Part shown: positions 15,848 to 58,422 of the stretch, piece after piece | Layout of the letters: each line of letters starts with the position of its first letter | Numbering within the stretch: position 1 is the stretch's first letter | Assembly (NCBI GenBank): GCA_030524705.1 | Contig: JAUNGD010000018.1 | Location: 1-58,422 of the forward strand | Reading direction: 5' to 3' | From: Lachnospiraceae bacterium | Lineage (GTDB): Bacteria; Bacillota; Clostridia; Lachnospirales; Lachnospiraceae | Length of the DNA stretch: 58,422 nucleotides | Notes under the pieces: model-generated | Databases searched by the model: none | What the model was told of the DNA's origin: nothing | The model's input: the letters and a program-made list of their open reading frames with translations, nothing else | Position numbers and translations under genes: made by a program

Positions 15848-15851
15848 TTTA

Positions 15852-16485: not shown

Positions 16486-16531
16486 TCCTATAAAATTTAT
16501 TTAAATTGTATGATAAAAGGATGAGGGAGCT

Positions 16532-17929: not shown

Positions 17930-17950
17930 AAAACAAAAAGGAGGAGAAAG

Positions 17951-31753: not shown

Positions 31754-31760
31754 CAAATTT

Positions 31761-31855
31761 GAAAACGGGGAGGCTGCTGAGGCCTGAGAGTAAACCGAAC
31801 GGTTTTGACCCTTAGAACCTGATACAGATAATACTGGCGAAGGAAAATACGTTTC
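31761..31855 (+). ncRNA. TPP (thi-box) riboswitch
   Basis: The ordered thi-box blocks are present: GGGGAGGCTGCTGAGGCCTGAGA, ACCCTTAGAACCTGAT as TGACCCTTAGAACCTGAT, and GATAATACTGGCGAAGGAAA. P1 can form between GAAAACG (31761) and CGTTTC (31850-31855). Binding of thiamin pyrophosphate should shut off the downstream transporter. Confidence 0.97.
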
Positions 31856-31887
31856 AGAGGTGCGGGAGGACGCACGGTCTGTTTTTT
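31855..31887 (+). terminator. TPP riboswitch terminator 1
   Basis: CAGA..GTGCG pairs with CGCAC..TCTG (31855-31864 with 31871-31881), followed by six T (31882-31887). Confidence 0.6.
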
Positions 31888-34667: not shown

Positions 34668-34694
34668 TTAGCACTCGACCTGAATGAGTGCTGA
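34668..34694 (+). promoter_or_regulatory. CIRCE operator (HrcA binding site)
   Basis: TTAGCACTC-N9-GAGTGCTGA, 8 of 9 bases in the second arm match the consensus inverted repeat TTAGCACTC-N9-GAGTGCTAA. It lies 17 bases before the lon start, next to the RBS. CIRCE is the HrcA heat-shock operator. Confidence 0.93.
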
Positions 34695-34710
34695 CAGAAG
34701 AGGTGATGTT

Positions 34711-36978
34711 ATGATTATCATACCGATTCACGATATGATTTTATTACCGGGAGTTAGTTTTTATTTTAAAAAAGAGACATACTATCATTGGAGCCCGGAG
34801 CAGGCGAAGCCGGGAGACGATATTTTGTTTCTGCTCCAGCGGGAATCTAAGGAGATTGAGGATTCCCCCGCAGAAAATTTTTATCCGATAGGGTTTTCCG
34901 CCGAGCTGGTTCATATAGATTCAGAAGGGCTTGTTCAGATGAAGGTTCGGAACAGGGTTGACGTTTCGGACATTGAAAATGAAAACGGCGTGCTTTCAGC
35001 TTCTGCCGCGGTACGGCCTGAGATCGAGGACATTTCGGAGGAAGAGCTGAAACGCAGATTTGAACGTGTCCGCGGGGCGTATCTTCAGTTTGTCCAGAAT
35101 TTCCAGTGGGGCGTATGGGCGAGAAATATCATTCTCCGGTGGAGCAGCCTGGAGGAAATGATCTGTTCCTCCGCAGGCTATTTGAATCTTCCATGGCCGG
35201 ATAAGTATGCGATCATGGCGGAGGATTCGCTGGAGAAGCGGAGCGAGATGATCGAGCACGCGATTTACAGCTTTATCGAGGAAAGCAAGGTGGCGGAGGA
35301 GGCCCAGGAAGCGCAGCAGGAGAGCCATGAGCAGACGTACCGGGAAGCAGCGATCAGGAAGCAGCTTGGTTTCCTGCAGAAGCAGCTGGAGGAGATGCAT
35401 CCTGAGAATGTGTCGGATATTCGGATGTTTGAGGAAAAGCTGGAGGCCTCCGGCATGAACGAGACCGCCAGGAAAGAGGCGGATAAGGTGCTGAACCGCA
35501 TGAAGCAGGAGGGCAAGGAGGGTCATGAGTACGGGATGCTGTATGATTACCTCGATTTTGTGACAAGCCTTTCCTGGAAGAAGGAGGCGGTGCCGGAGAT
35601 TGATCTGACAAAGGCCCAGGCGGTGCTGGATGCGGATCATTACGGGATGGAGCGGGTGAAGGAGCGCATCATACAGCAGATCGCGGTGATGGCCCTGAAT
35701 CAGAAGCAGTCCGGCTCCATTTTACTTTTCGTGGGCGCTCCCGGCACCGGAAAGACGAGTATCGGACAGAGCATTGCCCGGGCGCTGGACCGGAAATACG
35801 TGCGGATCAGTCTCGGAGGTATCCGGGATGAGGCTGAGATCCGGGGACACCGCAGGACATATATAGGAGCCATGCCGGGGCGTATCATGGAGGGAATGAA
35901 GCGAAGCGGCACATCAAATCCGGTCATGGTGCTGGACGAGGTGGATAAGCTTGCAAAGGATTACGGCGGAGATCCGGCCAGCGCATTGCTGGAGGTGCTG
36001 GACCCGGAACAGAACGGGACCTTTACGGACCATTATATGAATGTTCCTTATGATCTTTCGGACGTCCTGTTTGTCTGCACGGCCAATACTGTCGATACGA
36101 TACCGGAGCCTCTGCTGAACCGGATGGAGGTGATCCAGTTCCCGGGATACACGGCTCTTGAGAAAATGCAGATTGCTAAAAAACATCTGCTGCCGAAGGT
36201 TATGGAGGACACCGGTATCCGTCCCCGGACCCTGAAGGTGACGGATGAGGCGCTCCGCCGGATCATCGACGAATACACGATGGAATCAGGTGTGCGGGGG
36301 CTGAAAAAGCAGATCGGTACGCTGTGCAGATATGCGGCGGTGAAGCTGGTAAAGGGCGAGCAGAAGAGCGTTACGGTAAGCGCAAAGCGTCTGCCGGATT
36401 ATCTTGGCAGCCAGCGCACGTATCACGATAAAAAGATCGAAGAGGCGGTTCCGGGAGTAGTGACCGGACTGGCCTGGACCAGCGCCGGAGGAGAGATCCT
36501 GTTTGTGGAGTCAAGGCTGATTCCGGGCAGCGGCAATCTGATTATTACGGGACAGCTTGGCGACGTCATGAAGGAGTCGGTACAGATCGCGGTCAGCCTG
36601 GTGAAGGCCTTGTACCCGGAGGAGGCCGGGAAGCTGAAGGAGAATGACTTGCACATTCATGTGCCCGCGGGAGCTGTTCCGAAGGACGGCCCCTCCGCCG
36701 GGATCACGATTGTCACGGCTCTGGTCTCCCTGCTGACGGAGCGAAGCGTCAGCACGGAGCTTGCCATGACCGGGGAGATTTCCCTGAGAGGCAGCGTCCT
36801 TCCCATCGGAGGGCTCCCGGAAAAGCTGATGGCGGCGCAGCGGGCAGGAATTACCCGGGTGCTGATTCCGGCTGACAACGCGGCAGACCTGAAGGAGGTC
36901 GCAGAGGAAGTGAAGAAGAAGCTGAAAATCATTCCGGTAAAGAGGATGACAGACGTATTGGAGATCGCTTTTTCCTGA
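34711..36978 (+). CDS. lon: ATP-dependent protease Lon
   Basis: 755 aa from the ATG behind AGAGGTGAT; the in-frame ATG at 34684 lies inside the CIRCE site. An N-terminal substrate domain (LAN; 1-190) and a helical region lead to an AAA+ domain with Walker A GAPGTGKT near 342. The C-terminal protease has the Ser662/Lys705 dyad (PKDGPSAG, GGLPEK). Lon degrades misfolded and regulatory proteins. The LAN domain is somewhat shorter and diverged compared with E. coli Lon (784 aa). Heat-shock control by HrcA is predicted from the CIRCE site. ftsH follows after 97 bases. Confidence 0.96.
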   Translation: MIIIPIHDMILLPGVSFYFKKETYYHWSPEQAKPGDDILFLLQRESKEIEDSPAENFYPIGFSAELVHIDSEGLVQMKVRNRVDVSDIENENGVLSASAAVRPEIEDISEEELKRRFERVRGAYLQFVQNFQWGVWARNIILRWSSLEEMICSSAGYLNLPWPDKYAIMAEDSLEKRSEMIEHAIYSFIEESKVAEEAQEAQQESHEQTYREAAIRKQLGFLQKQLEEMHPENVSDIRMFEEKLEASGMNETARKEADKVLNRMKQEGKEGHEYGMLYDYLDFVTSLSWKKEAVPEIDLTKAQAVLDADHYGMERVKERIIQQIAVMALNQKQSGSILLFVGAPGTGKTSIGQSIARALDRKYVRISLGGIRDEAEIRGHRRTYIGAMPGRIMEGMKRSGTSNPVMVLDEVDKLAKDYGGDPASALLEVLDPEQNGTFTDHYMNVPYDLSDVLFVCTANTVDTIPEPLLNRMEVIQFPGYTALEKMQIAKKHLLPKVMEDTGIRPRTLKVTDEALRRIIDEYTMESGVRGLKKQIGTLCRYAAVKLVKGEQKSVTVSAKRLPDYLGSQRTYHDKKIEEAVPGVVTGLAWTSAGGEILFVESRLIPGSGNLIITGQLGDVMKESVQIAVSLVKALYPEEAGKLKENDLHIHVPAGAVPKDGPSAGITIVTALVSLLTERSVSTELAMTGEISLRGSVLPIGGLPEKLMAAQRAGITRVLIPADNAADLKEVAEEVKKKLKIIPVKRMTDVLEIAFS

Positions 36979-37011
36979 GACAATTGGAGCCTGCTTTTTC
37001 CGGTGCAGCGC

Positions 37012-37040
37012 TTGAGAGAACGCTCTGCAGCGGATATTAT
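37012..37040 (+). promoter_or_regulatory. candidate promoter of ftsH
   Basis: TTGAGA (37012-37017), 17-base spacer, TATTAT (37035-37040), 35 bases before the start. Confidence 0.55.
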
Positions 37041-37075
37041 AATATTGAAGGGACAGAAAGAAAGGAGGGGGTTAA

Positions 37076-38887
37076 ATGAATGAAATCAAAAAACCCAGAA
37101 AATCTTTGGCATTTTATTATACGATAGGTTTGATCGTAATTTTCCTGATCAATTTTCTGGCGATTCCATATATGGAACAGCGCCGGGTGAAGCAGGTGGA
37201 TTACGGCACCTTTATGTCGATGACGGAGAACCGGGAGATCGGTCAGGTAGAGATACAGGACAATCAGATTCTGTTTACCGATAAGGCGGGAGACCAGATT
37301 TACAAGACCGGGAAAATGGATGACCCGAATCTTGTGGAGCGTCTGCATGCCTCCGGCGCGGAGTTCGCCAGTGAGATCGTAGAGGAGCCATCGCTTCTCA
37401 TGAGCATTCTGATGTCCTGGGTGCTTCCGATGGTGATATTTATACTCATCGGCCAGATGCTGACAAAGAAGCTTATGAACAAGGCCGGCGGCGGGAATTC
37501 CATGATGTTCAACATGGGAAAAAGCAACGCCAAGGTGTATGTGAAATCCTCCGAGGGCATTCGATTTGCGGACGTGGCCGGAGAGGATGAGGCGAAGGAG
37601 AACCTGACGGAGATCGTCGATTATCTGCATACTCCGGGCAAATACAAAGAGATCGGAGCCTCCATGCCGAAGGGCATTCTGCTGGTGGGCCCTCCTGGAA
37701 CGGGTAAAACGATGCTGGCAAAGGCTGTGGCCGGAGAAGCAAACGTGCCGTTTTTCTCTATGTCCGGCTCGGAGTTTGTAGAAATGTTTGTTGGTATGGG
37801 TGCATCCAAGGTTCGGGATTTGTTCAAGCAGGCAAAGGAAAAGGCCCCGTGTATCGTTTTTATTGATGAGATCGACGCCATCGGCAAGAAGCGTGACGGA
37901 CAGATCGGCGGCAACGATGAGCGTGAGCAGACGCTGAACCAGCTTCTGACAGAAATGGACGGATTTGAGGGCAACAACGGCGTGATTATTCTGGCAGCGA
38001 CGAACCGGCCGGAATCCCTGGATCCTGCGCTTACCCGTCCGGGCCGGTTTGACCGCCGGGTTCCGGTGGAGCTTCCTGACCTGAAGGGCCGGGAGGAGAT
38101 TCTTAAGGTGCATGCGAAGAAAATCAAGATCGCAGACAACGTGGATTTCAATAAGATTGCCCGGATGGCCTCGGGAGCCTCGGGAGCAGAGCTGGCCAAT
38201 ATTGTGAACGAGGCGGCGCTGCGGGCAGTGCGGGACGGAAGAAAATTTGCTACTCAGGCCGATATGGAGGAGAGCATTGAGGTCGTTATCGCGGGCTATC
38301 AGAAGAAAAATGCGATCCTGACGACGCAGGAGAAGCTGATTGTCGCTTATCATGAGATCGGTCACGCCCTGGTGGCTGCGAAGCAGACGAATTCGGCTCC
38401 GGTTCAGAAAATCACGATTATTCCGAGAACCTCCGGTGCGCTGGGATACACGATGCAGGTGGAGGAGGGCAACCACTATCTGATGTCAAAGGAAGAGATT
38501 GAGAATAAGATTGCCACGTATACCGGAGGCCGGGCGGCAGAGGAAGTGATTTTCGGCTCCGTGACCACAGGCGCATCCAACGACATTGAGCAGGCAACGA
38601 AGCTTGCCCGGGCCATGATTACCCGGTACGGCATGAGCAAGGACTTTGACATGGTGGCTCTGGAAACTGTCAACAACCAGTATCTCGGCGGAGACGCTTC
38701 TCTCGTATGCTCGGCGGAGACCCAGACGGAGATCGACCGGCAGGTGGTGGAGCTGGTGAAGAAGCAGCATCAGAAGGCGGTGCAGATTCTTCTGGAGAAC
38801 CGTGATAAGCTGGATGAGCTGTCGCAATTCCTGTACGATCGGGAGACAATCACCGGCGAAGAATTTATGAATATTCTGAACAATTAG
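37076..38887 (+). CDS. ftsH: ATP-dependent zinc metalloprotease FtsH
   Basis: 603 aa. AAAGGAGGGGG precedes the ATG. Two TM helices (about 12-32 and 103-125) frame a short extracytoplasmic segment. AAA+ domain with Walker A GPPGTGKT (205-212), [10 protein letters not shown] and [24 protein letters not shown]. The zinc site is HEIGH (426-430), where most FtsH have HEAGH. It is a hexameric quality-control protease for membrane and cytosolic proteins. The pairing with lon makes a proteolysis locus. A second ftsH probably exists elsewhere in the genome (inference: the usual hpt-ftsH context is absent here). Confidence 0.96.
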
Positions 38888-45696: not shown

Positions 45697-45727
45697 GCAG
45701 CCGGTAATTTGGACTGGCTGCTTTTTT
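45697..45727 (+). terminator. intrinsic terminator after the two-component genes
   Basis: GCAGCCGGT (45697-45705) pairs with ACTGGCTGC (45713-45721, one G-U), followed by six T. Confidence 0.9.
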
Positions 45728-45769: not shown

Positions 45770-45798
45770 TTGATTTTAGACAATTACAGTGATAATAT
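45770..45798 (+). promoter_or_regulatory. candidate promoter of the vWA-tubulin-GTPase cluster
   Basis: TTGATT (45770-45775), 17-base spacer, TAATAT (45793-45798). The 45728-45920 gap is markedly AT rich and holds other -10-like sequences (TATAAT at 45836), so the exact start is uncertain. Confidence 0.4.
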
Positions 45799-45921
45799 GT
45801 TTCATAGAATTGTATATTCTGCACGGGCTTATTTCTATAATAATTATTGAACTATTATATCCAGATACCCAGGATGCAGAAGGATAACTTTTTGTAAGAA
45901 ATACATTTAGAGGAGAGAGAA

Positions 45922-48468
45922 ATGGGAGTTGTGAGAAGAAAGAAAAAAATCGGCAGTTTAGTAGGGATTATGTGTCTGCTTCTTTGCCTGCTGAGAATTC
46001 CGGCGGCGGCAGAAAGCGCAAAAACTGACGAAACTCCGGTAGATTTTGTGCTGGTGCTGGATTGCTCCGGCTCTATGAACAGTACGGATCCGAACAAGCT
46101 GACGACGAGCGCGGCAAAAATGTTCGTCGATATGCTTCCGGCTGAGAATGCCAGATTATCGGTGGTGGCATTCGGAAACGATTACAGCGAGAACGGCACG
46201 GCGTACGATCTGAGCCGGATCGCGGATCTGCAGGAAGAAATGCAGTCCAATCCGCTGGGGAGAAATCAGGTCAGAGTTGCCAGGGACCTGCAGGATATCA
46301 CGGCCCAGGAAGAAAAAAATGCGGCAAAGGACTGTATTGACGCCGCAATGAGCGAAGACCTGGGCGGACAAAACAAGTATACCCCTCTGGGGTATGCACT
46401 GGAGGCCGCGTGCCAGGTGCTGGAGGACAACGGCACGGAGCCGGATTCTGCAGCGATCATTTTGATGAGTGACGGCCGTCTGAAGGGACAGTCAGAGAAT
46501 GACAGCTATGAGGAGGGCCTGAAGTCACACAGCGTTGACCGGGCGGTGGATAAGACCAGGGCAAAGGGCTGGCCGATCTACTGCATGGAGCTGAATATGG
46601 ATGAGCAGAACGGCAGCAGCGGCCAGTATGACTGCAAAAGGGCCGTCTATGAGATGCGTGAGCATATACCGGAGACGCCGGAGGAGCATGTGGAGCTGAG
46701 GAATGCAACGGATGCACAGACTGCTTTTGCCGACATTTTTTCCAAGTTCTTTGATGTGGAACCGGAAGCGGTGGAATCCATGGTGATCGAGAACGGCGAG
46801 TGCTCAAGAGAATTTGAGCTGGATGAGATGATTGCGGAGACCAATATTACCATGACAGGTACGGCGGAGGGACTGGAGCAGCTTCAGGATATTATGATCA
46901 CGGACTGCAACGGCCAGACGACTACATATACTTCCAGCGTAGTACAGCAAAACAGGATTGTTACGTTTGAAAAGCAGTATATTACGATCAAGCTAATGAC
47001 GCCCCAGGCTGGATTATGGAAGGTTACAGCGCATGGAACGGACGATGTGGAGATCGGCCTGTATGCGGTTTCCATACATGAGATGGATCTGCAGCTCACG
47101 GCGAATACGGCAGAGGAGGTTCTGGCAAAGGGAACGACACTGAATTTCACCGCTTCCTTTGTTTACCATGACAATCCTTACGTGTCGGCCACGATATACC
47201 AGCAGTATCCGGCGTCTCTGTGGGTGGAAGGCCCGGGCGGCGGCGTGGTTACGATGGCAGGCAGCGACCACGACTACAGCGCATCTTTTACCTTTGCACA
47301 GAGCGGCACTTATACGGTCAAGGCGTATGTGGACGATGCGAACCTGTTCCGAAACGGACGGAAGGAAAGCGGAGAGTACGTATTCAGCGTCGGCAACATT
47401 CCGACGGAAGCAACCTCGGAGACTATACCGCCGCAGACAACGAATGTCGGCGGTACCATTGAGCCCATCGACTGTTCAAAATATTTTACGAACGAAGACG
47501 GAGATCCGCTTACTTACTCCGTGAATTTTGACCAGGCTTCCGGAATCCAGGCGGCCATAGATGAAAACGGCGTGCTGACGCTGACGGCGGGGAATATAGC
47601 CGGAGAATTTGAGATCACGGTCGGAGCAAAGGATCCCATGATGGAGGCGCTGGCGGTGCAGACCTTCTTGCTGACGGCCGAGAATCAGCCAATGACATTG
47701 GCCGAGGGACTTGGCGATGGGAAAAAGGTCACAGTGGAGTTCGCGTACAATGCAGACTCTATCCCGGAATTCTTGCGTAAATTTGTCGGAGTTCCCTCCG
47801 AAGCAGAGCGGGACATTTTCTGGTCGGATTATTTTTCAGACCCGGATGGGACGCCCATCGATGTTCAGGTGACGGAGGAAGAGGGCAGCGACGCCATTGC
47901 AATGACTCTCAATGAGACCGGAATGCATGTCTCCGGCAGCAAAAAGGGAAGCGCGGTATACCGGGTAACGGCGGCGGACATCAGCGACAGCAGCATTTCC
48001 TTCACCCTGCTTTTCCAGGTAAAGTCTCTGGATGCCAAGGCGCTTTTATGGAAAAAGATCCGGATCCCTCTGTTCGCTGCAATTGGTGCGGTGATAGTTG
48101 TCATTATTATTCTGGCGGCCGTATTTGGAGGAAGGAAAATATACGGCATTTGGGACGTCAGCGGAAGCGGCTATTATGAGACAGACCGGAAACTGGGTTC
48201 GACGCGCTCCGGCAAAAAATCGAAATGTAAGCTGGATAATATTCTGGATGATCTGAATATTCCGAATGGTTTTGGCGCGGTGGAGCTGGCAGCCGGCAAC
48301 AATATCAACCAGAGCGTGATTTTGAGAAACCTGAGTAAGCTGGATTATATCAAATACGACGGCAACAGCCTTACGGATACCTCAAAAATCAAAAAGCTGG
48401 TGATCAACAATGGACAGAGCGTGACTCTGGAAAAGGACGGCATATCCGTGACTCTGGAAAGACATTGA
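45922..48468 (+). CDS. membrane-anchored vWA-domain protein
   Basis: 848 aa with AGAGGAGAGAG before the ATG. The signal peptide spans about 1-32. The vWA domain (about 40-290) has MIDAS DxSxS at D47-C-S49-G-S51, Thr in KYTPLGYALEA and Asp in ILMSDGRLKG, so metal-dependent ligand binding is plausible. Ig-like and cadherin/dystroglycan-like beta modules follow (about 400-700; SKYFTNEDGDPLTYSV, WSDYFSDPDGTPIDV). A single TM helix (about 714-738) leads to a ~110-residue cytoplasmic tail of unknown fold. It is the first gene of the cluster; the tubulin-like gene starts 120 bases on. Confidence 0.9.
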   Translation: MGVVRRKKKIGSLVGIMCLLLCLLRIPAAAESAKTDETPVDFVLVLDCSGSMNSTDPNKLTTSAAKMFVDMLPAENARLSVVAFGNDYSENGTAYDLSRIADLQEEMQSNPLGRNQVRVARDLQDITAQEEKNAAKDCIDAAMSEDLGGQNKYTPLGYALEAACQVLEDNGTEPDSAAIILMSDGRLKGQSENDSYEEGLKSHSVDRAVDKTRAKGWPIYCMELNMDEQNGSSGQYDCKRAVYEMREHIPETPEEHVELRNATDAQTAFADIFSKFFDVEPEAVESMVIENGECSREFELDEMIAETNITMTGTAEGLEQLQDIMITDCNGQTTTYTSSVVQQNRIVTFEKQYITIKLMTPQAGLWKVTAHGTDDVEIGLYAVSIHEMDLQLTANTAEEVLAKGTTLNFTASFVYHDNPYVSATIYQQYPASLWVEGPGGGVVTMAGSDHDYSASFTFAQSGTYTVKAYVDDANLFRNGRKESGEYVFSVGNIPTEATSETIPPQTTNVGGTIEPIDCSKYFTNEDGDPLTYSVNFDQASGIQAAIDENGVLTLTAGNIAGEFEITVGAKDPMMEALAVQTFLLTAENQPMTLAEGLGDGKKVTVEFAYNADSIPEFLRKFVGVPSEAERDIFWSDYFSDPDGTPIDVQVTEEEGSDAIAMTLNETGMHVSGSKKGSAVYRVTAADISDSSISFTLLFQVKSLDAKALLWKKIRIPLFAAIGAVIVVIIILAAVFGGRKIYGIWDVSGSGYYETDRKLGSTRSGKKSKCKLDNILDDLNIPNGFGAVELAAGNNINQSVILRNLSKLDYIKYDGNSLTDTSKIKKLVINNGQSVTLEKDGISVTLERH

Positions 48469-48588
48469 TGCCGTAAAGGACGGCCGGACAGAAGCGGATC
48501 GCCAGACAGAAAAGAACCGTTTGTACAGAAAAGGGACGTCAGACAGGGACGGACCGGAAAATAAATACAAGAAGTGGAGGAAAGAAAA

Positions 48589-51500
48589 ATGGCATTGGAA
48601 ATAAAACCCAGGGCTGATATGGAAAAGCTGCTTGACGTCGGCAAGGTGGATGTGGGGAACGGAACGTTGTTCGGCGTTTCAGAGCTTCGGAAGCCGCGGA
48701 AGGAAGGACTGACTCTGATTATCAGCACCGGCGGCAGCGGAATGTCGTCCATCAAGGAGGCCATGCGCATCGCGGACCAGAAGCTGGAGCTGGACTATAA
48801 GAACTATGTAAAATTCATCGTGGTGGATTCCTCCAGAGGAGAGATTGCAGCGGTAAAGAAAAGCGGTGTGACTACGCTGAATATTTCTTCTCCCGGCGCG
48901 CAGGCAAGGATGGAGCACAGTGTGAGGCCGACCTTCTTTAAACGGTTTATGCCGAAGGATTACGACATATCATTGATCAATGACGACGGCGCTTCCCAGG
49001 ACCGTACCACCGGGAAAATGAAGCTGTATGATACACAGGACGGAAGCACCAACGACACCCTGTTCCGGAAGCTGATTCAGGATCTGTTCAAGGGAGCGTG
49101 GGCCGGATACAAGAACCTTCCGGTGGATATCATGATCCTTTCCGGACTCAGCGGCGGAAACGGCAGCGGCACCTTTGTGGATCTGGCCGTTCAGGCCAAG
49201 GCGGCATGCCCGGACGCATCCAAGGTCAGGGTATACGGATATCTGATGCTTCCCGATACGGCGGAGCGCTTTGCAGATTCAGACAGCGCGAAGAGAAGCC
49301 TTTACCGCAACGCCTTTGCAGCTCTGAAGGAGCTGGAGAGCTATATGAGCATCAGCTTTAACGGAAAGCGCAAAGAGGTGATTCCTTCGACTCTGAAGGC
49401 GAATGAGGTCACGTTAAGCGCGATCAATCTTCCGTATGATTATCCGGTGCTGATTTCCGGGGACTATGACGACGCCGTTTCCATGATCGCAGAGACCATT
49501 GTGAATCTGGTGGCTGACAGCAACGGCGCTTTTGACCAGCGCGCCTTTTACAGCAATATACTGACTTACCGTGATATCGCCCTTTCCGCAGCGGAGATGA
49601 GCGACAGCGGCATCCTGAAGCAGAATGCGTGCCCGGAGGATTCCCATATGTACTGCGGCATCGGGTACGCGCACGCATCCATTCCGGAAAAGATCGTGAT
49701 TCCGAATATTGTAAGCAAGGTATGCGATAAGCTGTACGTACCGGAGCAGACCGCCGGCATCGGCGACGCGTCTACGGAGACCGCGTTCTGCTCCAAGACG
49801 AAGCATATCGGCAAGATTGATTTCGAAAAGCAGATCCGTATTTTGTTCGGCTTGGATACAAAGGCACAGCTGACGCCGAATTCCCTTTGGAAAAAGGTGG
49901 AGGACCTGCTTGAATCCTGCTGTATTCTTGGGGAGAACGACTGGGATGTTACGCTGAAGGATATTCAGAACGGAGAGGTAGGGGAATATCTGAGGGGCTT
50001 TAATGTAGAAAATACAAAGGTGGAGTCCATTGACCGGATGCTGGCGGAGCTGAAGAAGCTTTATGAAGCGTTCTGCACGGGTGCAGAATCTGTTATGAAG
50101 GTGTACGGTCCCCGGGGACTTCAGCATCTCTATGAGGGTGAGGGAGATGCTGATGCCACCGGCAAGAAAGAGGATTTTTCTGCTATTTCCATTAAGAGCA
50201 TGATGCAGTCCGTGGTGGACGGACTCAATAAGGTCGCTGGTACGCCGGGCAAGTATCCGGAGACCGGAGAAAAGGTAGGAATGTGGCAGCATATCAAGGG
50301 TGCTGTGGGCCTGAATAACAAGCTGGACGAATGGAAGGGCGAGGCGAAGAAAGCCGCTCAGCAGGATGTGTGCAGCAAGGTGGCGGCGGCTATGGGCGGC
50401 GTCAGCGGCGGCTGGAAGACCGAGTTCTCCGATAAGGTAGTCAATTTTGAAAAATGCAGCGAACGGTTCGCAGACGTCCTCGAGACATTGACCGATTATT
50501 ATTCCGGAGTCGGAAAGAGTCTGGATTCCGATGACTTCCAGGAGTTTTCCAAGTCTACGGGAGAAAGAAACGGCGTGAACCTCTGCTCCGACGCCTCAAT
50601 GTACAAGTGGGTCAAGGACCGCGTTGAGACTAAGGTGAACGGTATCAAAATCGCGAATGTGAAGGAAGCCCTGATCGAAGACTTCATGGCACACTCCGAT
50701 ATCTGGATCAGCGACGATCCCGGCAAGGCAAGAAGGCAGTACGACCTGATCATGAGCCAGTGCTGCGCCATCGGTAAATATGCATCTGCGAACAACGGAC
50801 TGAACCTGACCATTACGGATTATTTTGAGGAGCTTTTGAAGGATGTGCCGGAGGAATCCCAGGCGGTTGCAGTGAACAATGTGGTCGGCAGCATCATGGG
50901 CAGGCTGCTTCAGAGCAGTGCGCCGTCACTGGAGATGGCCCCGAGAAGCTACTGCCATATCAACCAGATCATTCTTGTTCCCCGGAGCCTGATCGTAGGG
51001 AAGTACGGGCCTCTGATTGAAGAAGCGTTCAAATCTTACCTTGGCCAGGAAGGAAGGGTGGCGATATCCTCCGTCGTAGAATCCATTGTATGCTACCAGG
51101 CGTCCGTGGCGAATCCGCTGAGCGGTCTGAAGGATCTGTCGTTGTGGGAGTCCGGCTATGAGGATGCGGCGACTACGACCATGCACCTGTGCAACGGCGA
51201 GCATGTGACACAGTACAATGAGCTGACCAAGAAGCAGACCGACGTGGAGATGAATGTTGTCAGCACAGAACCGATCTCGGCGGAGGATGATATGCTGGGC
51301 GGCACAGGCCTTAGCTGGCGCAATTATCCGTCCATTAATGTACTGAGGTACCAGGGAAATTTCCATTCAGATGAAAATACATCCGAAAGCAAGTACCGCA
51401 GGGATATTTTCAACAGAAAGATCGATTATGCATTGAAGGAAGGCATCATCGAATGTGAAAGAGACGGAAATATCTATAAATATTATGTAAACCTTATTCC

Positions 51501-52347
51501 GCAGGATTGGGGCAATCTCAGCGTCCGCGGTTATAGACAGAAGGAGGCAGGGCGGTTCAAGCGCGGAAAAGCGCTGTTTGAATACCTGAGTAACCAGAAT
51601 CCGCATTCGGAGCAGCAGTGGAGGTACCAGGCCGTTCTTACGGGTTCTCCGTTCTTTGGCGAGGCAGGCTTCGATTTCTCTGAAATTATTCGTCTGGAGC
51701 ACTGGACGCAGGAACGGATCAACAGGACGCACGACAGCTATATGAGACGTATCCTGAGAAAGAATACATATCTGTATCAGCAGCTGGAATATACGCTGTA
51801 CCGTTATTATGAGGTGCGCCGGGCTCTGGAGGAGATCGAGTCCGTATACGCTGCAACGTACCAGGCGCAGACCTTTGCAGAGCTGTTTGCGTACGGCGTG
51901 GTGAATGCGGATGAGGATGAATACGAATGGACCGTGAGGATCAATACCCGGGGCGGGAATATTGAGATCATGACCTTTGGCCGCAAGACCACGGCCAAGA
52001 TGGGAGGTTTTGAAAAAGGGCTGCTGGGCGACGGGCTGAAGCTTGCGATTGTTTACAACCGATTCAGAGAGCTTTTGGACCGGCAGGAAATAAAAATGGA
52101 TGAGCTTACTGAGCTGAAGAACGATCTGATTGACACAATGACAGACAAGGAGCTGGACCAGATGATCGATGCAAGGGTCGGAATACTGCAGAAATCACTG
52201 GAGAGCTATACCTCTTTGTATGGAAGGGCAAAGGATCCCATCGATGCAATGCTGGAGGCATACAAGCTGGACGATGACATGATCGACCCGGCGGAGCAGG
52301 TGCAGAAGTTCTATGAGGCAGTGCAGGAAGCAATCAATACAATCTAG
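48589..52347 (+). CDS. large tubulin/FtsZ-superfamily protein (Tubulin_2-like)
   Basis: 1252 aa from the ATG behind GTGGAGG. The N-terminal ~450 residues show the tubulin/FtsZ nucleotide-binding layout: T1-like LIISTGGSGMSSIKEA (43-58), an FIVVDSS strand (76-82), and a T4 signature SGGNGSGTFVDLA (188-200) in place of FtsZ GGGTGTG. The remaining ~800 residues are helical and unassigned, with a GTPase-superfamily-like C-terminal third rich in Tyr/Arg/Glu. No TM or signal. FtsZ has ~350 aa, so this is a much enlarged relative. I infer GTP binding and possible filament formation. It is the second gene of the cluster. Confidence 0.8.
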   Translation: MALEIKPRADMEKLLDVGKVDVGNGTLFGVSELRKPRKEGLTLIISTGGSGMSSIKEAMRIADQKLELDYKNYVKFIVVDSSRGEIAAVKKSGVTTLNISSPGAQARMEHSVRPTFFKRFMPKDYDISLINDDGASQDRTTGKMKLYDTQDGSTNDTLFRKLIQDLFKGAWAGYKNLPVDIMILSGLSGGNGSGTFVDLAVQAKAACPDASKVRVYGYLMLPDTAERFADSDSAKRSLYRNAFAALKELESYMSISFNGKRKEVIPSTLKANEVTLSAINLPYDYPVLISGDYDDAVSMIAETIVNLVADSNGAFDQRAFYSNILTYRDIALSAAEMSDSGILKQNACPEDSHMYCGIGYAHASIPEKIVIPNIVSKVCDKLYVPEQTAGIGDASTETAFCSKTKHIGKIDFEKQIRILFGLDTKAQLTPNSLWKKVEDLLESCCILGENDWDVTLKDIQNGEVGEYLRGFNVENTKVESIDRMLAELKKLYEAFCTGAESVMKVYGPRGLQHLYEGEGDADATGKKEDFSAISIKSMMQSVVDGLNKVAGTPGKYPETGEKVGMWQHIKGAVGLNNKLDEWKGEAKKAAQQDVCSKVAAAMGGVSGGWKTEFSDKVVNFEKCSERFADVLETLTDYYSGVGKSLDSDDFQEFSKSTGERNGVNLCSDASMYKWVKDRVETKVNGIKIANVKEALIEDFMAHSDIWISDDPGKARRQYDLIMSQCCAIGKYASANNGLNLTITDYFEELLKDVPEESQAVAVNNVVGSIMGRLLQSSAPSLEMAPRSYCHINQIILVPRSLIVGKYGPLIEEAFKSYLGQEGRVAISSVVESIVCYQASVANPLSGLKDLSLWESGYEDAATTTMHLCNGEHVTQYNELTKKQTDVEMNVVSTEPISAEDDMLGGTGLSWRNYPSINVLRYQGNFHSDENTSESKYRRDIFNRKIDYALKEGIIECERDGNIYKYYVNLIPQDWGNLSVRGYRQKEAGRFKRGKALFEYLSNQNPHSEQQWRYQAVLTGSPFFGEAGFDFSEIIRLEHWTQERINRTHDSYMRRILRKNTYLYQQLEYTLYRYYEVRRALEEIESVYAATYQAQTFAELFAYGVVNADEDEYEWTVRINTRGGNIEIMTFGRKTTAKMGGFEKGLLGDGLKLAIVYNRFRELLDRQEIKMDELTELKNDLIDTMTDKELDQMIDARVGILQKSLESYTSLYGRAKDPIDAMLEAYKLDDDMIDPAEQVQKFYEAVQEAINTI

Positions 52348-52356
52348 CGAAATGAG

Positions 52357-52385
52357 GGGGATATGGCAGAGCCTGCCGTATCCCC
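52357..52385 (+). promoter_or_regulatory. long hairpin between the tubulin-like gene and next gene
   Basis: GGGGATATGGCAG (52357-52369) pairs with CTGCCGTATCCCC (52373-52385, one G-U), AGC loop. No T-run follows, so it looks more like an mRNA processing or stability element than a terminator. Confidence 0.6.
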
Positions 52386-52419
52386 TATACAGTAAAAGCC
52401 GGAAAGGATTACGGAGAAA

Positions 52420-53898
52420 ATGCCAACATTACTGAATAATTTGGATACGCAGCCGGACGCGCTGGTGGTTTTTATTGACAATCAGATAAGACGGCAGGAA
52501 AATACGGCGTCTGAGTGGATGGAAAAGCTCTTCGACAGCCAGCAGTATCTCTACCTGAGAGAGAACGATATGACGGGAGAAGAGCTGTTCAAAAGGATCA
52601 GAGAAGAGATCTATGAGTGCAATGTGATCCTGCCGGACAGTCAGCGGATGGTTTTTTGCTATTATCTGGAATTAAGGGACCTTACGCAGGAGTGGGTGGA
52701 CTGTTTTTTTGAGCGGGCCAGGGAGCTGCAGCGGCTTCTCTCCATCGACAACATGTTTACACATCATCATATGATTTGTCTCAGCTATGAAAATGTAAAT
52801 CCCCTGGCAGAAGAAAAAAGCAGGATCATCGGTCTGCTGCAGCAGTTGGCTCAGTCCGGGCCCAGCATATCCCATGTGATATACATGCTGCATGTGACCG
52901 GATTTGAGACGCTGGACAGCCAGGAGCATGGGATGGTGCAGCTTCTGCATCTGGTGAGCCGAAGAGATTATTTCCGGGTCGCGAAGCCCATGGGAAATAA
53001 AACGTATCTGAAAATGCTCTGCTATGCGGATTATTATGAGGATCGGGCGGCCGCCTGCCAGCAAAGAATAAAAGAGCTGTCCGGGTGGCTGACGCAGGAG
53101 AACGACCCGGAGCTGTCAAGGCTCCTGGGGACGGTAAAGCTGTCACTGAATGCGCCGGTACAGGAGCTGAGGAAAGCAATCAGCGCCTTTCGCCGCAGGA
53201 TTCCCCTGTATCCGATCAGTGTGACGGATTTTCAGGGCAATCCGATCACCGGTTATCGGTCGCGGATCTCCGATAACAATCCGATTATTCAGCAGAGAAA
53301 AGAGGAATATATAAGCGATATAAAGAAAGCTCTGGCGGAGCGAGCAGATCTGAGCAATGCACGGAATATTCTCGAGGAGGAGTTCCATTACCCGGATTTC
53401 TGCCATTTGGAGAGTCTGATGGAGCAGGGGCTGCTGGAACAAAATGTTTTGGGAGGCATTGATAATAGGGACAATAACCCCGATATAGATTCTCTGGCCC
53501 GGGCAGTCTGCGGCCGCGTCAGATGCATGGCGGGATCCTTGATAGCGGTTCTGGAGGAAAAGAAAGAGGCCGTGGAAAAGGAACGCCGCAGCAATCAGCG
53601 GGAGCTGAAGCTGGCCGGAAAGTACCGTGATCTGTCAAATTGCTTTTCAAGGATCGAGGGGGACACCGGGTTTTCTCCTATTGCCGGTTATTTTCCGGAA
53701 AATGTAGAGCGGGTGGTCCTGATCAGCGGAAAATGCTTTAATGACTGGCTGCACCAGCAGTATGAGATCGCCGGAGTCACGCAGGCATATCGGTATCCGG
53801 AGATCGAGCCGTATGAGATTGTTGTGCTGAAGGAAGGCGACCTTTTGAATCTGGCGGAGGAAGACGCAAAAGAAAAGCTGGAAAGAATATTAAATTGA
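52420..53898 (+). CDS. hypothetical protein, vWA-tubulin-GTPase cluster component (492 aa)
   Basis: Start ATG behind ACGGAGAAA. Helical throughout, no signal, TM or nucleotide motif. Residues ~375-405 look coiled-coil (VLEEKKEAVEKERRSNQRE). The C-terminal ~90 residues are beta/alpha mixed (VERVVLISGKCFNDWLHQQ). I do not recognise the family. Position after the tubulin-like gene and four-gene colinearity suggest a cytoplasmic adaptor or regulator of that protein. The stop TGA overlaps a possible TTG start of the next gene. Confidence 0.8.
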   Translation: MPTLLNNLDTQPDALVVFIDNQIRRQENTASEWMEKLFDSQQYLYLRENDMTGEELFKRIREEIYECNVILPDSQRMVFCYYLELRDLTQEWVDCFFERARELQRLLSIDNMFTHHHMICLSYENVNPLAEEKSRIIGLLQQLAQSGPSISHVIYMLHVTGFETLDSQEHGMVQLLHLVSRRDYFRVAKPMGNKTYLKMLCYADYYEDRAAACQQRIKELSGWLTQENDPELSRLLGTVKLSLNAPVQELRKAISAFRRRIPLYPISVTDFQGNPITGYRSRISDNNPIIQQRKEEYISDIKKALAERADLSNARNILEEEFHYPDFCHLESLMEQGLLEQNVLGGIDNRDNNPDIDSLARAVCGRVRCMAGSLIAVLEEKKEAVEKERRSNQRELKLAGKYRDLSNCFSRIEGDTGFSPIAGYFPENVERVVLISGKCFNDWLHQQYEIAGVTQAYRYPEIEPYEIVVLKEGDLLNLAEEDAKEKLERILN

Positions 53899-53909
53899 GG
53901 TACGGTGAC

Positions 53910-54473
53910 ATGTTAAAAGACAGGATTGTGAGAACGGCCGCGGGCTTCCAGGTGCTTCGGGAAAAGAACGGGGAGGACAGGCAGCTCTATTACGGAGAGT
54001 TTTCGTTAAAGGACCGGAGGGATGCAGACATTCCGCTCCGGGAGATCCGGTACTGGGATCCGGCTGATGCCTATGAAACTCTGATAAAAAAGCCGAAATG
54101 CTATATTCTGGTGGTGGAAAAGGAAAACGGTGAGATCGTGGGAAGTCATCGTTTCTTCTTTTCGGTATCCCGGGGGAAGCCGACTCTGCGCATTTCCATC
54201 AAGCCAAAACGTAAATACGGGAAAAACGCTCACATGATCACGATCGAGTGGGTTGAATGCAATGCGGAATCGATCAACAGCCAGTACATATACCTGACGG
54301 ATCAGGACGGAGAAAAATACTATTTTCTGAAGGAGCTGATACAGCCCCTGGAGCCGGACGGCAAGAGGCTGATGGATCAGTACGTGTTTACGGTCCCGGA
54401 GGGCCATAAGCCGGAGGAATACTATGTGGAAGTGGATCCGCTGGTCCGGGAAAAATACAGTATTGAAGATTAG
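53910..54473 (+). CDS. hypothetical beta-rich protein, cluster component (187 aa)
   Basis: Start ATG at 53910 with GAGG 9 bases upstream; a TTG at 53895 overlapping the previous stop is possible and would add 5 residues. The predicted structure is mainly beta (LYYGEFSLKDRRDADIPLREIRYW, CYILVVEKENGEIVGSHRFFFSV, MITIEWVECNAES). No TM, signal or catalytic motif is seen. I do not recognise the family. It lies between the 492-aa protein and the GTPase, almost without gaps, so it is probably part of the same complex. Confidence 0.75.
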   Translation: MLKDRIVRTAAGFQVLREKNGEDRQLYYGEFSLKDRRDADIPLREIRYWDPADAYETLIKKPKCYILVVEKENGEIVGSHRFFFSVSRGKPTLRISIKPKRKYGKNAHMITIEWVECNAESINSQYIYLTDQDGEKYYFLKELIQPLEPDGKRLMDQYVFTVPEGHKPEEYYVEVDPLVREKYSIED

Positions 54474-54526
54474 TGTGCGGGATATGACCTTTGACATTCT
54501 GTACACGGCAACAGGTGGGAGAAAAA

Positions 54527-56437
54527 ATGATATACGATTATTATTGTGTAGATTGCGGAAGAAAATTTGGCGGGGAAGAGATCAATTTTGATCTGGCAGA
54601 GTTTCTCGGGCTGAGCGGCATCGGCAACAACAGTGTGGCCGAGAAACGGAACAAGCAGGCTGATGCGGAGCGTTCCGGGACATCCAAGGCCGATAGTAAC
54701 AGTGTGGTGGAGAGCAGGACGACACAGATCAGTGCGGAACGTCTGGCGGAGCTGGCGCAGTATTCCGGCGAAAAGCTGGTCCACGGGAAGCCCTGCAGGA
54801 TAGAAATTACGTTAAAAGAGCTTTTAGAGATCATGGGTGAAAATGCAGGCGGACAGAGAATGCGCAACCTGATGGAGAGCTATAAATTCGATGAGCTTGA
54901 CCGTGCGATTGACAGAGTATTTTCTACGAATGAAAATATCCGGGTCGCGGATCAGATGGTTCAGGCATATAAGACAGTGATGTACAATAAATTTTCCTAT
55001 ATGCTGCATGAGGAGGATGAGCCGAAAGACGAGGATAAGGCAAGGGAGGAACGGAATCTTACGGAAAATTACCATGCCTATTTCTGGGTGGAGCCGGAGT
55101 TTTTTGACGACGGCAGATCCGACAAGCTATATACCGTAAAATATTCGGAGGAGGAAAGGCCGGTCAATATGAGAACGCTTCAGGCTCCCACGAAAATCCG
55201 GGGCTACTGCCCGGTATGCGGAAAGGCAGTCCTTCACGGGGCCGGACGCTACCGCCATACGCTGGTGGGGCTGTTGGGGGCGCAGAGCGCCGGAAAGACC
55301 AGCGCGATCGTGGGACTGCTTTCTGAGATGCGGCAGTCCTTCCGGAGATTGGGGGTAAAGTATCCGGGCAACGCTCTCTGTGACAGCAGATATGCAGATC
55401 GTGAAGCAAATATGAGGCTCTACGAAAACGGCTGGGCGGTGCGCAAGACGAACGTTCAGACCAGCGCCGGAAGTTTTAATGCTTCTCTGCTGCTGGAGCC
55501 GGCCTCCGGCGGTCTTCCCCAGATTGTCACCTTTATCGACATTGCCGGGGAGCAGTGCTACAATCTGGAGACCCAGGAAATGAACCGCACGGCTCTGGAG
55601 GTGTACCCTCTGATCAACAGCTGCCATGTTTATCTGCTTTGCACGGTCATCGACGAGAAGGGCTACGGAAATGCGGAGGGTGAAGTGCAGTTCATTCCGC
55701 CGGATGCAGTGCTCCAGATCGCAAAGGGAATCTACCAGAATCTGAGGGAGCCGAAGAACGTGCCTCCGCTCTGCATCGTGACGACCAAGGCCGATATGGC
55801 GGCGAAGGCAGTGGCCGGCAGCTCATCGGACAATCCATTTATGGCGCTGAAGCCGGACCGGAGCTATCTGTACCGGGGACAGCTTGATCTGATGAAGCAG
55901 GTCTATGAGACGAAAAATGACCCGGATATCAGGGGGCCTCTGAAGTGGTGCTGTGATACGTATGACGAGCTGAAAAACACCACGTATATCTCCATGATCT
56001 CCTGCTCGGCGCTGGGGCGCATGGGAAAGAAATACGAGGGGGATATCGACAATATTGAGCCGTATATGAATGAAAACGGCGAGAAAGAACCCTTTGTAAA
56101 ACAGAGAATGGATATTCTTTGGAAATGGGTACTGCAGGTCATCGGCCTGACGGTCCTGGACGGAAGCAATTATAGGGTGCCGTATATTCCGGCGTACGGG
56201 GAAAGCTACAGCAGCGGAAGAAGCGGGGAAGAGAATTCCCGTGCGCGGCACAGAAAGCTGTACCGGTCATCGGAGGCTCTGAGCAGGATCGATGCGGTGA
56301 AAAAACTGTTTTTGAATCAGTCCGTTCTGGATAAAAGGATCAGTGACGCCTGGAACGACGATCTGACCCTGATCGAGAAGCTCCGGGGCATCACCCGGGA
56401 ACGCAAGGTTCAAAATTTGCTTGATGAGCTGGATTGA
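54527..56437 (+). CDS. zinc-ribbon P-loop GTPase (double-GTPase-like)
   Basis: 636 aa from the ATG behind GGTGGGAG; the TTG at 54491 is less likely. A split zinc ribbon has CVDC at 7-10 and CPVC at 228-231, separated by a ~215-residue insert that begins with a diverged 23-residue duplication (around 34-78). The GTPase core: P-loop GAQSAGKTS (251-259, Lys257), DIAGE (338-342) as the DxxG element, and TKAD at 420-423 as the NKxD element. No TM. It resembles the double-GTPase/DO-GTPase type linked to GAP1 proteins; that name is from family memory and needs a profile search. The next gene starts 25 bases on. Confidence 0.85.
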   Translation: MIYDYYCVDCGRKFGGEEINFDLAEFLGLSGIGNNSVAEKRNKQADAERSGTSKADSNSVVESRTTQISAERLAELAQYSGEKLVHGKPCRIEITLKELLEIMGENAGGQRMRNLMESYKFDELDRAIDRVFSTNENIRVADQMVQAYKTVMYNKFSYMLHEEDEPKDEDKAREERNLTENYHAYFWVEPEFFDDGRSDKLYTVKYSEEERPVNMRTLQAPTKIRGYCPVCGKAVLHGAGRYRHTLVGLLGAQSAGKTSAIVGLLSEMRQSFRRLGVKYPGNALCDSRYADREANMRLYENGWAVRKTNVQTSAGSFNASLLLEPASGGLPQIVTFIDIAGEQCYNLETQEMNRTALEVYPLINSCHVYLLCTVIDEKGYGNAEGEVQFIPPDAVLQIAKGIYQNLREPKNVPPLCIVTTKADMAAKAVAGSSSDNPFMALKPDRSYLYRGQLDLMKQVYETKNDPDIRGPLKWCCDTYDELKNTTYISMISCSALGRMGKKYEGDIDNIEPYMNENGEKEPFVKQRMDILWKWVLQVIGLTVLDGSNYRVPYIPAYGESYSSGRSGEENSRARHRKLYRSSEALSRIDAVKKLFLNQSVLDKRISDAWNDDLTLIEKLRGITRERKVQNLLDELD

Positions 56438-56462
56438 GCATCCGGCATTGAAGGGAGAGAAT

Positions 56463-58422
56463 ATGAAAAATCAGTATAGCTTTTTGACGAGGGCGGACGG
56501 AAAGCAGAACCAGCAGACGTTTGATGACCCGAATTTGAGGATATTCCTGAATGAGCAGCATGTGACGAATGAGCACAGGCTGAAAAATGATCTTATGGGC
56601 TTCTTTCTGTCTTCATGGTCCTTCTGCCGATCCTATCTTTTTATGAATTTCCGCTTCAGAAAGCAGGAATACACCACATATATGGGAAAGGATATCGGTG
56701 AGTTCATCCCGGTGTACGGAGTAAAGGGCGCCGTCGGTGGTTTGGCCCGGGATACAAAGTATGTCTCCCTTACCATGAGCGGAGAAGAGGATATACTGGG
56801 CGCCGGTTTTAATGAGTATATTTTTGGAATGCAGTATATCAGTGAGGCAGAGGCCCGGGATGAAACGGATCCGGCTGTTTTGCTGCGGCGAAAAGAAAAA
56901 AAGGTGGATTACACGATAGCTCCGGACCGCAGGCGGCTGGTGAGCAGGATACTGGAAAAGCTGTGGGAGGCCCAGGAGCAGGATCCTGCCACTCGGTTCA
57001 TCATCCTTCTGGAGGATGCGGAGAACCGTTCCATGGAGCTTCTGCGGGAATTGTATCTGCTGATACCGCAGAAGCTGCGGCTTCAGCTTGGATTTGAAAC
57101 GAATATCATTAAGGCTGATCTGGATGTAGTAAATCAGCACGGGCTGCCGATCCATATACTGACAATGGAACGGTCTGAGTACAGTGATATGAGCCGTCTT
57201 TACGGTTTTCCGATAGCGGTATTTGACGTGGAGCAGCAGGATCAGTATGCATATGATCCAGTAAGGCTGCGCACTCTGGAGCAGATGGCGGAGCACATGC
57301 AAAGGCCGATGACCTTCTGCCTGGGATACGCAGAAAAAAAGGTCATGGAGCAAAAAGAAATCCGGGGCTCTGATTTCTGTTTTTACCAGGAGATCCTGAA
57401 TATGTTGGGCACGCCGGAGCTTTACTGGTGGGAGAAAAAGACTTACTCCGGAATCGCTCAGCTGTACCGGGATTACTGCGAACAGGCAGAGCTGATGGCA
57501 GAACCGGTGCTGGAAAAGGAAGCGATCGGGTCATTTTATATGAATATAGTTCCGCAAAGTGGCCTTGCCTCTGAGATCGCAATGCTGGTGAAGAATCAGG
57601 ACGCTCCAAACAGAACGAAGTATCTGGACTTTCTGGAGCAGTGTCTGTATTACGGCAGGGAAATAGGCGCAGCGGAAGAGCTGATCACACTGCTGAAGGA
57701 GGAAAAAGAGACGGCTCTTGCTCAAGAGGAAGAGCGCGCCAGAAAAAAGGAACAGCAGATGCTGGAGGAGCAGCAGAAACGAGAACAGCAGGCGCAGGAG
57801 GAGCATCAGAAACAAAAACAGCAGGCGCTGCAGGAGCAGCAGGAAAAGCTGCAGCGGCGCTTTGAGGATGAAAAGCAGCAATGCGTTCTTGCACTTGAAA
57901 AGGAGCACACGGAAAAACAGCGGACGCTGGAGGAGGAGCGGGATTCCTGGAAGAAAGATTGTGACAAGCTCGAGGCTCTCAAAGCGGCTCTTGAACAGGA
58001 GAACCTGGAGCTGGAAGAGCAGCTCAGAAGGTATGAGGAAGAGGATGCTTTTCTTCAGATAAGATCTCTGGAGGATGAGCTGGCCGCGCAGAAAAATAAA
58101 TTAGAAGAGGCGAAGAAAGAGACGGGCAATGTTTCGAAGAGCCGGACTATTTTTCTCGCGACCACTGTTGTCCTGGCGATCATCGCAGCGGTGGGGATCG
58201 CGGCGGCTGTCATGTTTATGAAGTCAGCAAACACAGCAATACAGGACCGCACCTCCTATGAGTCGGAGCTGAAGGCTGCACAGGAGAAGAACGCAGAGCT
58301 GGATGAGAATGTGAAGGCGCTGGAAAGCGAACGGGATGAGGCCGTGAAGGCGCTGGAAGAGGCAAAGGAACCGGACACGACAGGCCAGACAGGAACGACA
58401 GACGGGACGGGAACATCAGGCC
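56463..58422 (+). CDS. GAP1-N-like coiled-coil membrane protein, 3' partial
   Basis: At least 653 aa; the frame is open to the window end. The start ATG has GGGAGAG 6 bases upstream. Residues 1-370 form a globular domain that resembles the GTPase-associated GAP1-N family: YSFLTRADGKQNQQTF at the N-terminus, FVLLED-like strand FIILLEDAENRSMELLRELY, and LGFETN. A coiled coil rich in Glu/Gln/Lys (about 400-555) and one TM helix (about 561-585, TIFLATTVVLAIIAAVGIAA) follow. An extracytoplasmic coiled region and a Thr/Gly-rich linker (TTGQTGTTDGTG) come after it. It probably anchors the cytoplasmic GTPase to the membrane. The domain call is from memory and unverified. Confidence 0.8.
   Translation, partial: MKNQYSFLTRADGKQNQQTFDDPNLRIFLNEQHVTNEHRLKNDLMGFFLSSWSFCRSYLFMNFRFRKQEYTTYMGKDIGEFIPVYGVKGAVGGLARDTKYVSLTMSGEEDILGAGFNEYIFGMQYISEAEARDETDPAVLLRRKEKKVDYTIAPDRRRLVSRILEKLWEAQEQDPATRFIILLEDAENRSMELLRELYLLIPQKLRLQLGFETNIIKADLDVVNQHGLPIHILTMERSEYSDMSRLYGFPIAVFDVEQQDQYAYDPVRLRTLEQMAEHMQRPMTFCLGYAEKKVMEQKEIRGSDFCFYQEILNMLGTPELYWWEKKTYSGIAQLYRDYCEQAELMAEPVLEKEAIGSFYMNIVPQSGLASEIAMLVKNQDAPNRTKYLDFLEQCLYYGREIGAAEELITLLKEEKETALAQEEERARKKEQQMLEEQQKREQQAQEEHQKQKQQALQEQQEKLQRRFEDEKQQCVLALEKEHTEKQRTLEEERDSWKKDCDKLEALKAALEQENLELEEQLRRYEEEDAFLQIRSLEDELAAQKNKLEEAKKETGNVSKSRTIFLATTVVLAIIAAVGIAAAVMFMKSANTAIQDRTSYESELKAAQEKNAELDENVKALESERDEAVKALEEAKEPDTTGQTGTTDGTGTSG

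Follow-up and report, generated by a model that had tools for sequence, protein, structure and literature searches.

Six colinear genes at the end of a contig from a Lachnospiraceae bacterium constitute a genuine new example of a kind of system described in 2010 and in 2020, in which a tubulin-like protein is encoded together with von Willebrand factor A (vWA) proteins, a GTPase, and, in the later description, a GAP1-type protein; they do not constitute a new system. The window, by which is meant the whole stretch of DNA analysed, is one entire contig (JAUNGD010000018.1, 58,422 nt) of assembly GCA_030524705.1 (3.87 Mb, 145 contigs, 88.3% complete), and the six open reading frames (ORFs) lie at 45922-58422, all on the + strand. 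It is very likely that the locus belongs to the known Tubulin_2/FtsZl1-vWA-DO-GTPase-GAP1 systems because its domains, its gene order, the proteins in the GAP1 slot of two comparison loci (L097 and L098), and the published descriptions agree. The original prediction for this locus, in which the vWA-tubulin combination could not be matched to any known system, was therefore wrong on this point: the combination is described in the available parts of both PMC2875224 and PMC7159879.

Relation to Described Systems

Makarova and Koonin (2010; PMC2875224, available in part, like the other papers cited here) described FtsZl1 operons containing vWA proteins, diverged GTPases, and kinases, for which they proposed a role in membrane remodelling; Tubulin_2 is connected to their FtsZ-like proteins in PMC9871819. 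Kaur, Burroughs, Iyer, and Aravind (2020; PMC7159879) described a Firmicutes tubulin theme of the GAP1-N2/DO-GTPase systems. The traits of this theme include two tubulin genes, the second with a C-terminal coiled coil, two vWA genes, one fused to YtkA and the other with multiple transmembrane segments (TMs), a component with fibronectin type III (FNIII) repeats, and a GAP1 protein with a polar C-terminal extension; zinc-ribbon GTPases are found in GAP1-N2 systems generally.

As far as that description is available, the window resembles it in having a tubulin-domain protein, a vWA protein with putative extra extracellular domains, a DO-GTPase with a Walker-B glutamate and N-terminal zinc ribbons, and a GAP1-like protein with a TM and a polar C-terminal extension; moreover, L097 has a clear GAP1-N2 protein in the same gene order. 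The window differs from it in having only one Tubulin_2 gene and one vWA gene up to the contig end, no multi-TM vWA gene between tubulin and GTPase, a GAP1-like protein and a GTPase that fall below the Pfam cut-offs, and strongly diverged proteins in the two positions between tubulin and GTPase, termed here slot 3 and slot 4.

The combination of an FtsZ-like protein, a vWA protein with a DxSxS motif, and a diverged GTPase is also that of the FtsZl1 operons. The kinase that is their frequent partner is seen in L007, a locus from the same genus, whereas the window's contig ends before that point. The window also has GAP1-like, slot-3, and slot-4 proteins, which are not named in the available part of PMC2875224, and no OmpA-type partner is seen among its six genes. 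The VMAP/MoxR-vWA ternary systems (Kaur et al. 2020, in the available part) share with it a vWA component and a proposed threshold-switch logic, but Pfam finds no MoxR AAA+ ATPase and no VMAP match in the six proteins.

The Six Genes and Their Products

The gaps between successive ORFs are 105, 72, -4, 17, and -17 bases, the last becoming +25 if counted from the ATG at 56463 (Table 1). The original prediction was sound in its description of the cluster: the ORF map bears out the colinear order and the gaps of at most 120 bases, all the motifs quoted are found, and Pfam and hydropathy support both the export of the vWA protein, with its tail in the cytoplasm, and the membrane anchoring of the GAP1-like protein.

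Table 1. Features of the cluster and of the region immediately upstream.
Feature	Position in window	Strand	Basis and remarks
Terminator-like hairpin	45697..45721	+	9-pair stem, TTTTTT tail; separates gene 1 from the histidine kinase upstream
Overlapping promoter-like matches before gene 1	45783..45818	+	9/12; weak, no evidence of function
Gene 1, exported vWA protein, 848 amino acids (aa)	45922..48468	+	Pfam, hydropathy, motif, position in comparison loci
Gene 2, Tubulin_2/FtsZl1-type protein, 1252 aa from ATG	48589..52347	+	PF13809
Gene 3 (slot 3), 492 aa	52420..53898	+	No family
Gene 4 (slot 4), 192 aa	53895..54473	+	No family
Gene 5, DO-GTPase2-type GTPase	54527..56437	+	PF19993, motifs
Gene 6, GAP1-like protein with coiled coil	56463..58421	+	GAP1-M, TM; truncated by the contig end

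In the gene 1 product, a vWA domain at residues ~41-219 carries the metal ion-dependent adhesion site (MIDAS) motif D47-x-S49-x-S51 and matches both VWA_2 (E 3.4e-6) and VWA over their cut-offs; matches to Hemicentin-GBD and PKD are below theirs, and YtkA is not reported. Hydropathy predicts an N-terminal hydrophobic segment (residue 10) and one TM (residue 717), followed by a tail of 113 aa. Gene 2 matches PF13809 (Tubulin_2) over cut-off with an E of 3.1e-30, in agreement with the tubulin-superfamily protein of 1252 aa originally proposed; its length differs according to the choice of start codon, being 1257 aa from the GTG at 48574 and 1252 aa from the ATG. Its motifs, numbered from the GTG, are GGSG at 53 and SGGNGSGT at 193, and no TM is predicted.

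Genes 3 and 4, which had been put forward as unrecognised, are indeed without any Pfam match of note. The structural model of gene 3 (pLDDT 45) has an alpha/beta N-terminus at ~13-163 and a remainder made mostly of long helices, while that of gene 4 (pLDDT 57) is all-beta, with a C-terminal part resembling immunoglobulin (Ig) or FNIII domains. A search with gene 3 gave matches in 2 of 299 genomes, its own included, the other match being an SMC protein.

The gene 5 ORF has 648 aa from a TTG at 54491, and the ATG at 54527 is preceded by a purine-rich stretch. The predicted zinc-ribbon GTPase is supported by its motifs (GAQSAGKTS at 263, DIAGE at 350, and TKAD at 432), by two CxxC pairs (19 and 240) ahead of the P-loop, by a DO-GTPase2 match, albeit one below cut-off, and by its L007 relative, 44% identical to it, which exceeds that cut-off (28.3 bits). 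A search with gene 5 in 60 relatives gave matches in four, its own genome included; that in G019, of the same genus, was close, and those in G026 and G045 were weak. The gene 6 ORF opens at a TTG at 56421 and remains open at the contig end; hydropathy places one TM near ORF residue 582, and a polar C-terminal extension follows. The link made earlier to predicted conflict systems of the GAP1 type holds, but the identity of gene 6 as a GAP1 protein is weakly supported by its sequence (18.3 bits for GAP1-M against a cut-off of 24).

With other collections, NCBIfam gave nothing near cut-off for the six proteins (best E 0.0021, within the vWA part of gene 1), and the one PHROGs match, in gene 2, is weak (E 2.6e-4) and of unknown function. 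A search with gene 2 in 200 genomes of the family gave matches in eight; one is its own, and the other seven are at 23-31% identity.

Conservation of the Gene Order

L007 is a 17.9 kb contig from G019 that carries a tubulin gene, its start cut off, and homologues of genes 3-6 in the same order, with identities to the window of 47% for the tubulin and of 34%, 44%, 44%, and 30% for genes 3, 4, 5, and 6. The contig is cut upstream, before any vWA gene could appear. Since L007 keeps five of the window's genes colinear, the arrangement is, on this sequence comparison, not a product of chance. Its gene 6 homologue is followed by three genes, whose products are a TM protein of 215 aa, an exported protein of 293 aa, and a Ser/Thr kinase carrying SH3 domains past its TM. 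As originally anticipated, the cluster runs off the end of the window, because the window is the whole contig and the last ORF is still open, and it is a fair guess that the same three genes are what follows. The window's own assembly, searched with the exported protein of L007, gave no match.

In a survey of 392 genomes of the order with the Pfam models Tubulin_2 and DO-GTPase2 (E 0.001), the former was found in 64 genomes and the latter in 63, of which 56 and 41, respectively, exceed the curated cut-offs. Both were present in 34, and in 23 of these they were on the same contig; such linkage counts are lower bounds because the assemblies are fragmentary. Each of the 23 linked genomes has a tubulin gene followed on the same strand, at a distance of 6.0-8.3 kb, by a GTPase gene, and one of them has an additional GTPase on the opposite strand. 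Twenty-two loci were compared by their ORF maps: L097-L116 and L009, which cover 21 of the 23 linked genomes (G439:C15 and G556:C68 were left out), and L007. Twenty of these loci were chosen for the linkage of tubulin and DO-GTPase2, so this pair is present by selection, and the remaining slots are not. The vWA, tubulin, GTPase, and GAP1 groups are single-linkage clusters (phmmer, E 1e-5), with Pfam applied to some members.

The plan common to the 22 loci is vWA-tubulin-slot 3-slot 4-GTPase, with variations, and the order in the window is the same. Co-occurrence of the genes in other genomes, which had been proposed as a test that could go against the original prediction, is thus found. A vWA-group gene is immediately 5' of the tubulin gene in 17 loci; it is partial in L099 and L111, and a 91-aa ORF intervenes in L113. 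In L100 and L101 it lies downstream instead, in L115 a two-TM protein without a vWA match occupies the position, and in L007 and L109 the contig is cut. Slots 3 (510-808 aa) and 4 (178-257 aa) are occupied in every comparison locus, L100 and L101 having one extra gene ahead of slot 3.

Between tubulin and GTPase, L009, L097, L098, L099, and L108 encode another vWA protein, for which 4-6 TMs are predicted. No multi-TM vWA gene is found in this interval in the window or in L007; the window's contig ends, and a copy may lie further downstream. In L102, a multi-TM vWA-group protein of 487 aa is encoded on the opposite strand (1098-2561, -) just 5' of the vWA gene of the cluster, and therefore the second vWA gene may sit elsewhere in some loci. 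In L009/L032, an exported vWA protein is found together with a tubulin, a multi-TM vWA protein, and a GTPase that exceeds the DO-GTPase2 cut-off. Downstream of this related cluster, L009, which comes from another family, has a gene for a HerA-type ATPase (2348-5095, -).

The clearest GAP1-slot proteins are those of L097 (GAP1-N2, E 2.6e-43, and GAP1-M, E 2.3e-17) and L098 (GAP1-N2, E 2.3e-38, and GAP1-M, E 1.1e-9), all over cut-off; that of L114 matches GAP1-N2 with an E of 9.7e-7. GAP1-M is below cut-off in the GAP1 slot of the window, L007 (17.3 bits), L100, L109, and L114. L105 has two DO-GTPase clusters ~10 kb apart on opposite strands (6508-20000), one with a tubulin gene and without an adjoining GAP1 gene, the other with a GAP1-group gene.

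Several observations weigh against placing the window among these systems. Gene 5 is below the cut-off of PF19993 (DO-GTPase2; E 1.2e-4, 22.2 bits against 27), and the order-wide search with this model missed it; gene 6 matches GAP1-M with an E of only 0.0029, and Pfam reports no GAP1-N2 in it or in its L007 relative. Gene 2 is the sole Tubulin_2 match in its assembly, and one vWA gene is seen. Neither gene 3 nor gene 4 can be linked by sequence to the proteins in slots 3 and 4 of other loci, L007 excepted. In nine of the 22 comparison loci (L103-L107, L110-L112, and L116), the GTPase gene is not directly followed by a GAP1-type gene, and the GAP1-slot proteins of L009 and L102 have no GAP1 profile match, L115 being outside the scan. 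Finally, the searches made of open PubMed Central turned up no experimental work on a cluster of this sort.

Different contexts of Tubulin_2 also exist. In three genera (L026, L027, and L028), the conserved order is a two-TM protein of 735-742 aa, which has a weak vWA match in L026, a tubulin of ~1150 aa, a two-TM protein of 655-681 aa, and a protein of >1100 aa with several TMs. In L024, an 839-aa Tubulin_2 protein (8021-10540, -; E 1e-73) is encoded between RF3 and a diacylglycerol-kinase-like gene, and no vWA or DO-GTPase is present among the 5 of its 15 ORFs that were scanned.

Slot 3 as a Probable Diverged Tubulin in Some Loci

The slot-3 proteins include a group A of nine proteins, a group B of four (L097, L098, L099, and L108), and a group C of two. 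Profile comparison of group B with 25 tubulins of these loci gave a probability of 98.0% with an E of 1.8e-13, in an alignment that spans 657 columns and runs colinear from the first strand onwards, whereas the controls gave 0.3% for the reversed profile, 0.0-3.5% for 15 column shuffles, 0.2% against the GTPases, and 0.5% against the vWA proteins. Groups A, B, and C are interrelated (88-96%), and the merged set gave 95.5% against the tubulins; the slot-3 protein of L114 joins this set at 94.3%, and that of L102 only at 28%. Two results speak against homology: groups A and C alone gave only 0.8% and 3.9% against the tubulins, and the group B signal is strong in the middle third only (95.6%), the N-terminal piece giving 5-6% and the last one 1.7%. 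On the profile comparisons, slot 3 is judged to hold a tubulin homologue in 16 of the 22 comparison loci, directly or via its group.

A motif scan finds a GGxGSG-like loop in all 25 tubulins, with variants in L108 and in one L114 copy, and in none of the 23 slot-3 proteins. Since this GTP-loop motif is absent from all of the latter, the slot-3 tubulin homologues have probably lost GTP binding. L114 itself has three tandem Tubulin_2 genes in one cluster (7932-16175, -; 1131, 921, and 663 aa), and in the 663-aa protein SGATGAG replaces GGTGSG. The slot-3 protein may correspond to one member of the tubulin pair in Kaur et al. (2020); in the available part of PMC7159879, no mention was found of a loss of the GTP loop in the second tubulin.

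The slot-3 proteins of the window (0.2%), L007, L009, L109, L113, and L115 have no sequence link to the slot-3 or tubulin groups, and Pfam gives nothing over cut-off for those of the window, L007, and six other loci. The model of gene 3 is compatible with a tubulin homologue but is no evidence of one. One tentative generalization, to which we attach somewhat less than even confidence, is that slot 3 always holds a dead tubulin paralogue beside the live one, which would serve as a cap, seed, or scaffold at the membrane, and that gene 3 would be an extreme form of it, no longer recognisable from its sequence.

Possible Function at the Membrane

As a whole, the best explanation, that the locus is one of the known systems and works at the membrane as proposed here, is reasonably probable; the detailed working, taken as a single scheme, is put forward more hesitantly, as plausible though short of an even chance. 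The best guess is a GTPase-gated assembly at the membrane. The vWA/Ig ectodomain would bind a wall, envelope, or peptide ligand outside the cell, and the state of the ectodomain would be relayed by the single TM helix of the vWA protein to its tail in the cytoplasm. As a pair with the slot-3 protein, the tubulin-like protein would assemble at the membrane in a GTP-dependent manner, under a threshold set by the zinc-ribbon GTPase together with the GAP1-like protein anchored in the membrane. The Ig/FNIII-like slot-4 protein could be an adaptor or a variable sensor. Candidate outputs are membrane remodelling, the containment of an invader, or the death of the infected cell.

One possibility is defence, as predicted by Kaur et al. 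(PMC7159879, in its available part): the sensing of an invader via the GTPase/GAP1 switch would lead to tubulin assembly and so limit the spread of the invader. This reading is taken to be less likely than not. The presence of the cluster is patchy, relatives of gene 5 being found by profile in 2 of 47 genomes of the genus and 3 of 392 of the order (its own included in each), and slots 3 and 4 and GAP1 have diverged. Moreover, the L007 kinase matches the PADLOC model mads_6 (E 9.7e-46), along with other kinase models, although this may reflect the kinase domain alone. However, the best PADLOC E for the six proteins of the window is only 0.043, and no effector enzyme is recognised within its cluster. 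The flanks, where scanned, encode Lon, FtsH, penicillin-binding proteins, trigger factor, and a two-component system, and the PADLOC matches of these genes are in keeping with AAA, protease, or receiver domains. The G+C of the cluster is similar to that of its flanks, genes 2 and 5 have no match in plasmids, and gene 2 has none in phages.

Another possibility, held with similar reserve, is a membrane-remodelling or envelope-maintenance machine unrelated to invaders, as predicted by Makarova and Koonin (PMC2875224, in its available part). In the cluster, two proteins, each with one predicted TM and one of them (gene 1) with an additional signal-like segment, surround a tubulin for which no TM is predicted, and L007 continues with genes for a TM protein, an exported one, and a kinase with SH3 domains past its TM; a DO-GTPase is, moreover, tied to membrane stress in the available part of PMC11237479. 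However, several parts are highly divergent, and the function is not a general envelope one because the cluster is absent from most of the relatives searched. The membrane layout and the flanking genes do not decide between defence and remodelling; the patchy distribution and the divergence lean towards defence, and the mads_6 match of L007, which may reflect the kinase domain alone, might point the same way. That the six genes are merely neighbours without a joint function, as might be supposed from the lack of a recognised family for genes 3 and 4, is most improbable given the repetition of the plan in 22 loci, the tight spacing, and the conserved proteins.

Whichever output is favoured, the linked clusters unite a cytoskeletal protein, surface sensors, and a GTPase switch, and the conserved gene order and the probably GTP-dead tubulin partner are concrete, testable parts. 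The questions they raise concern co-assembly of the pair, its control by the GTPase, and the choice between defence and envelope remodelling as the outcome.

Upstream Boundary and Other Features of the Window

The pair of kinase genes upstream of gene 1 probably forms a transcription unit apart from the cluster because a terminator-like hairpin and weak promoter-like sites precede gene 1. This hairpin is the best + strand match in the terminator scan (17 found against 11.4 expected), in which further, shorter terminator-like matches lie inside the genes.

Elsewhere in the window, genes for Lon-type and FtsH-type proteases adjoin at 34684-38887 (+), and their PADLOC matches (BrxL, IetA, and others) are in keeping with the protease and AAA domains they share. 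A BspA-type leucine-rich-repeat protein of 970 aa is encoded at 17951-20863 (+), with genes for an O-antigen-ligase-like protein and then a trigger-factor-like protein 3' of it. Two riboswitches are predicted: a cobalamin riboswitch at 10508-10686 (-), with 107 bits, and a thiamine pyrophosphate (TPP) riboswitch at 31756-31862 (+), with 56.2 bits, slightly above the gathering score of 54.3.

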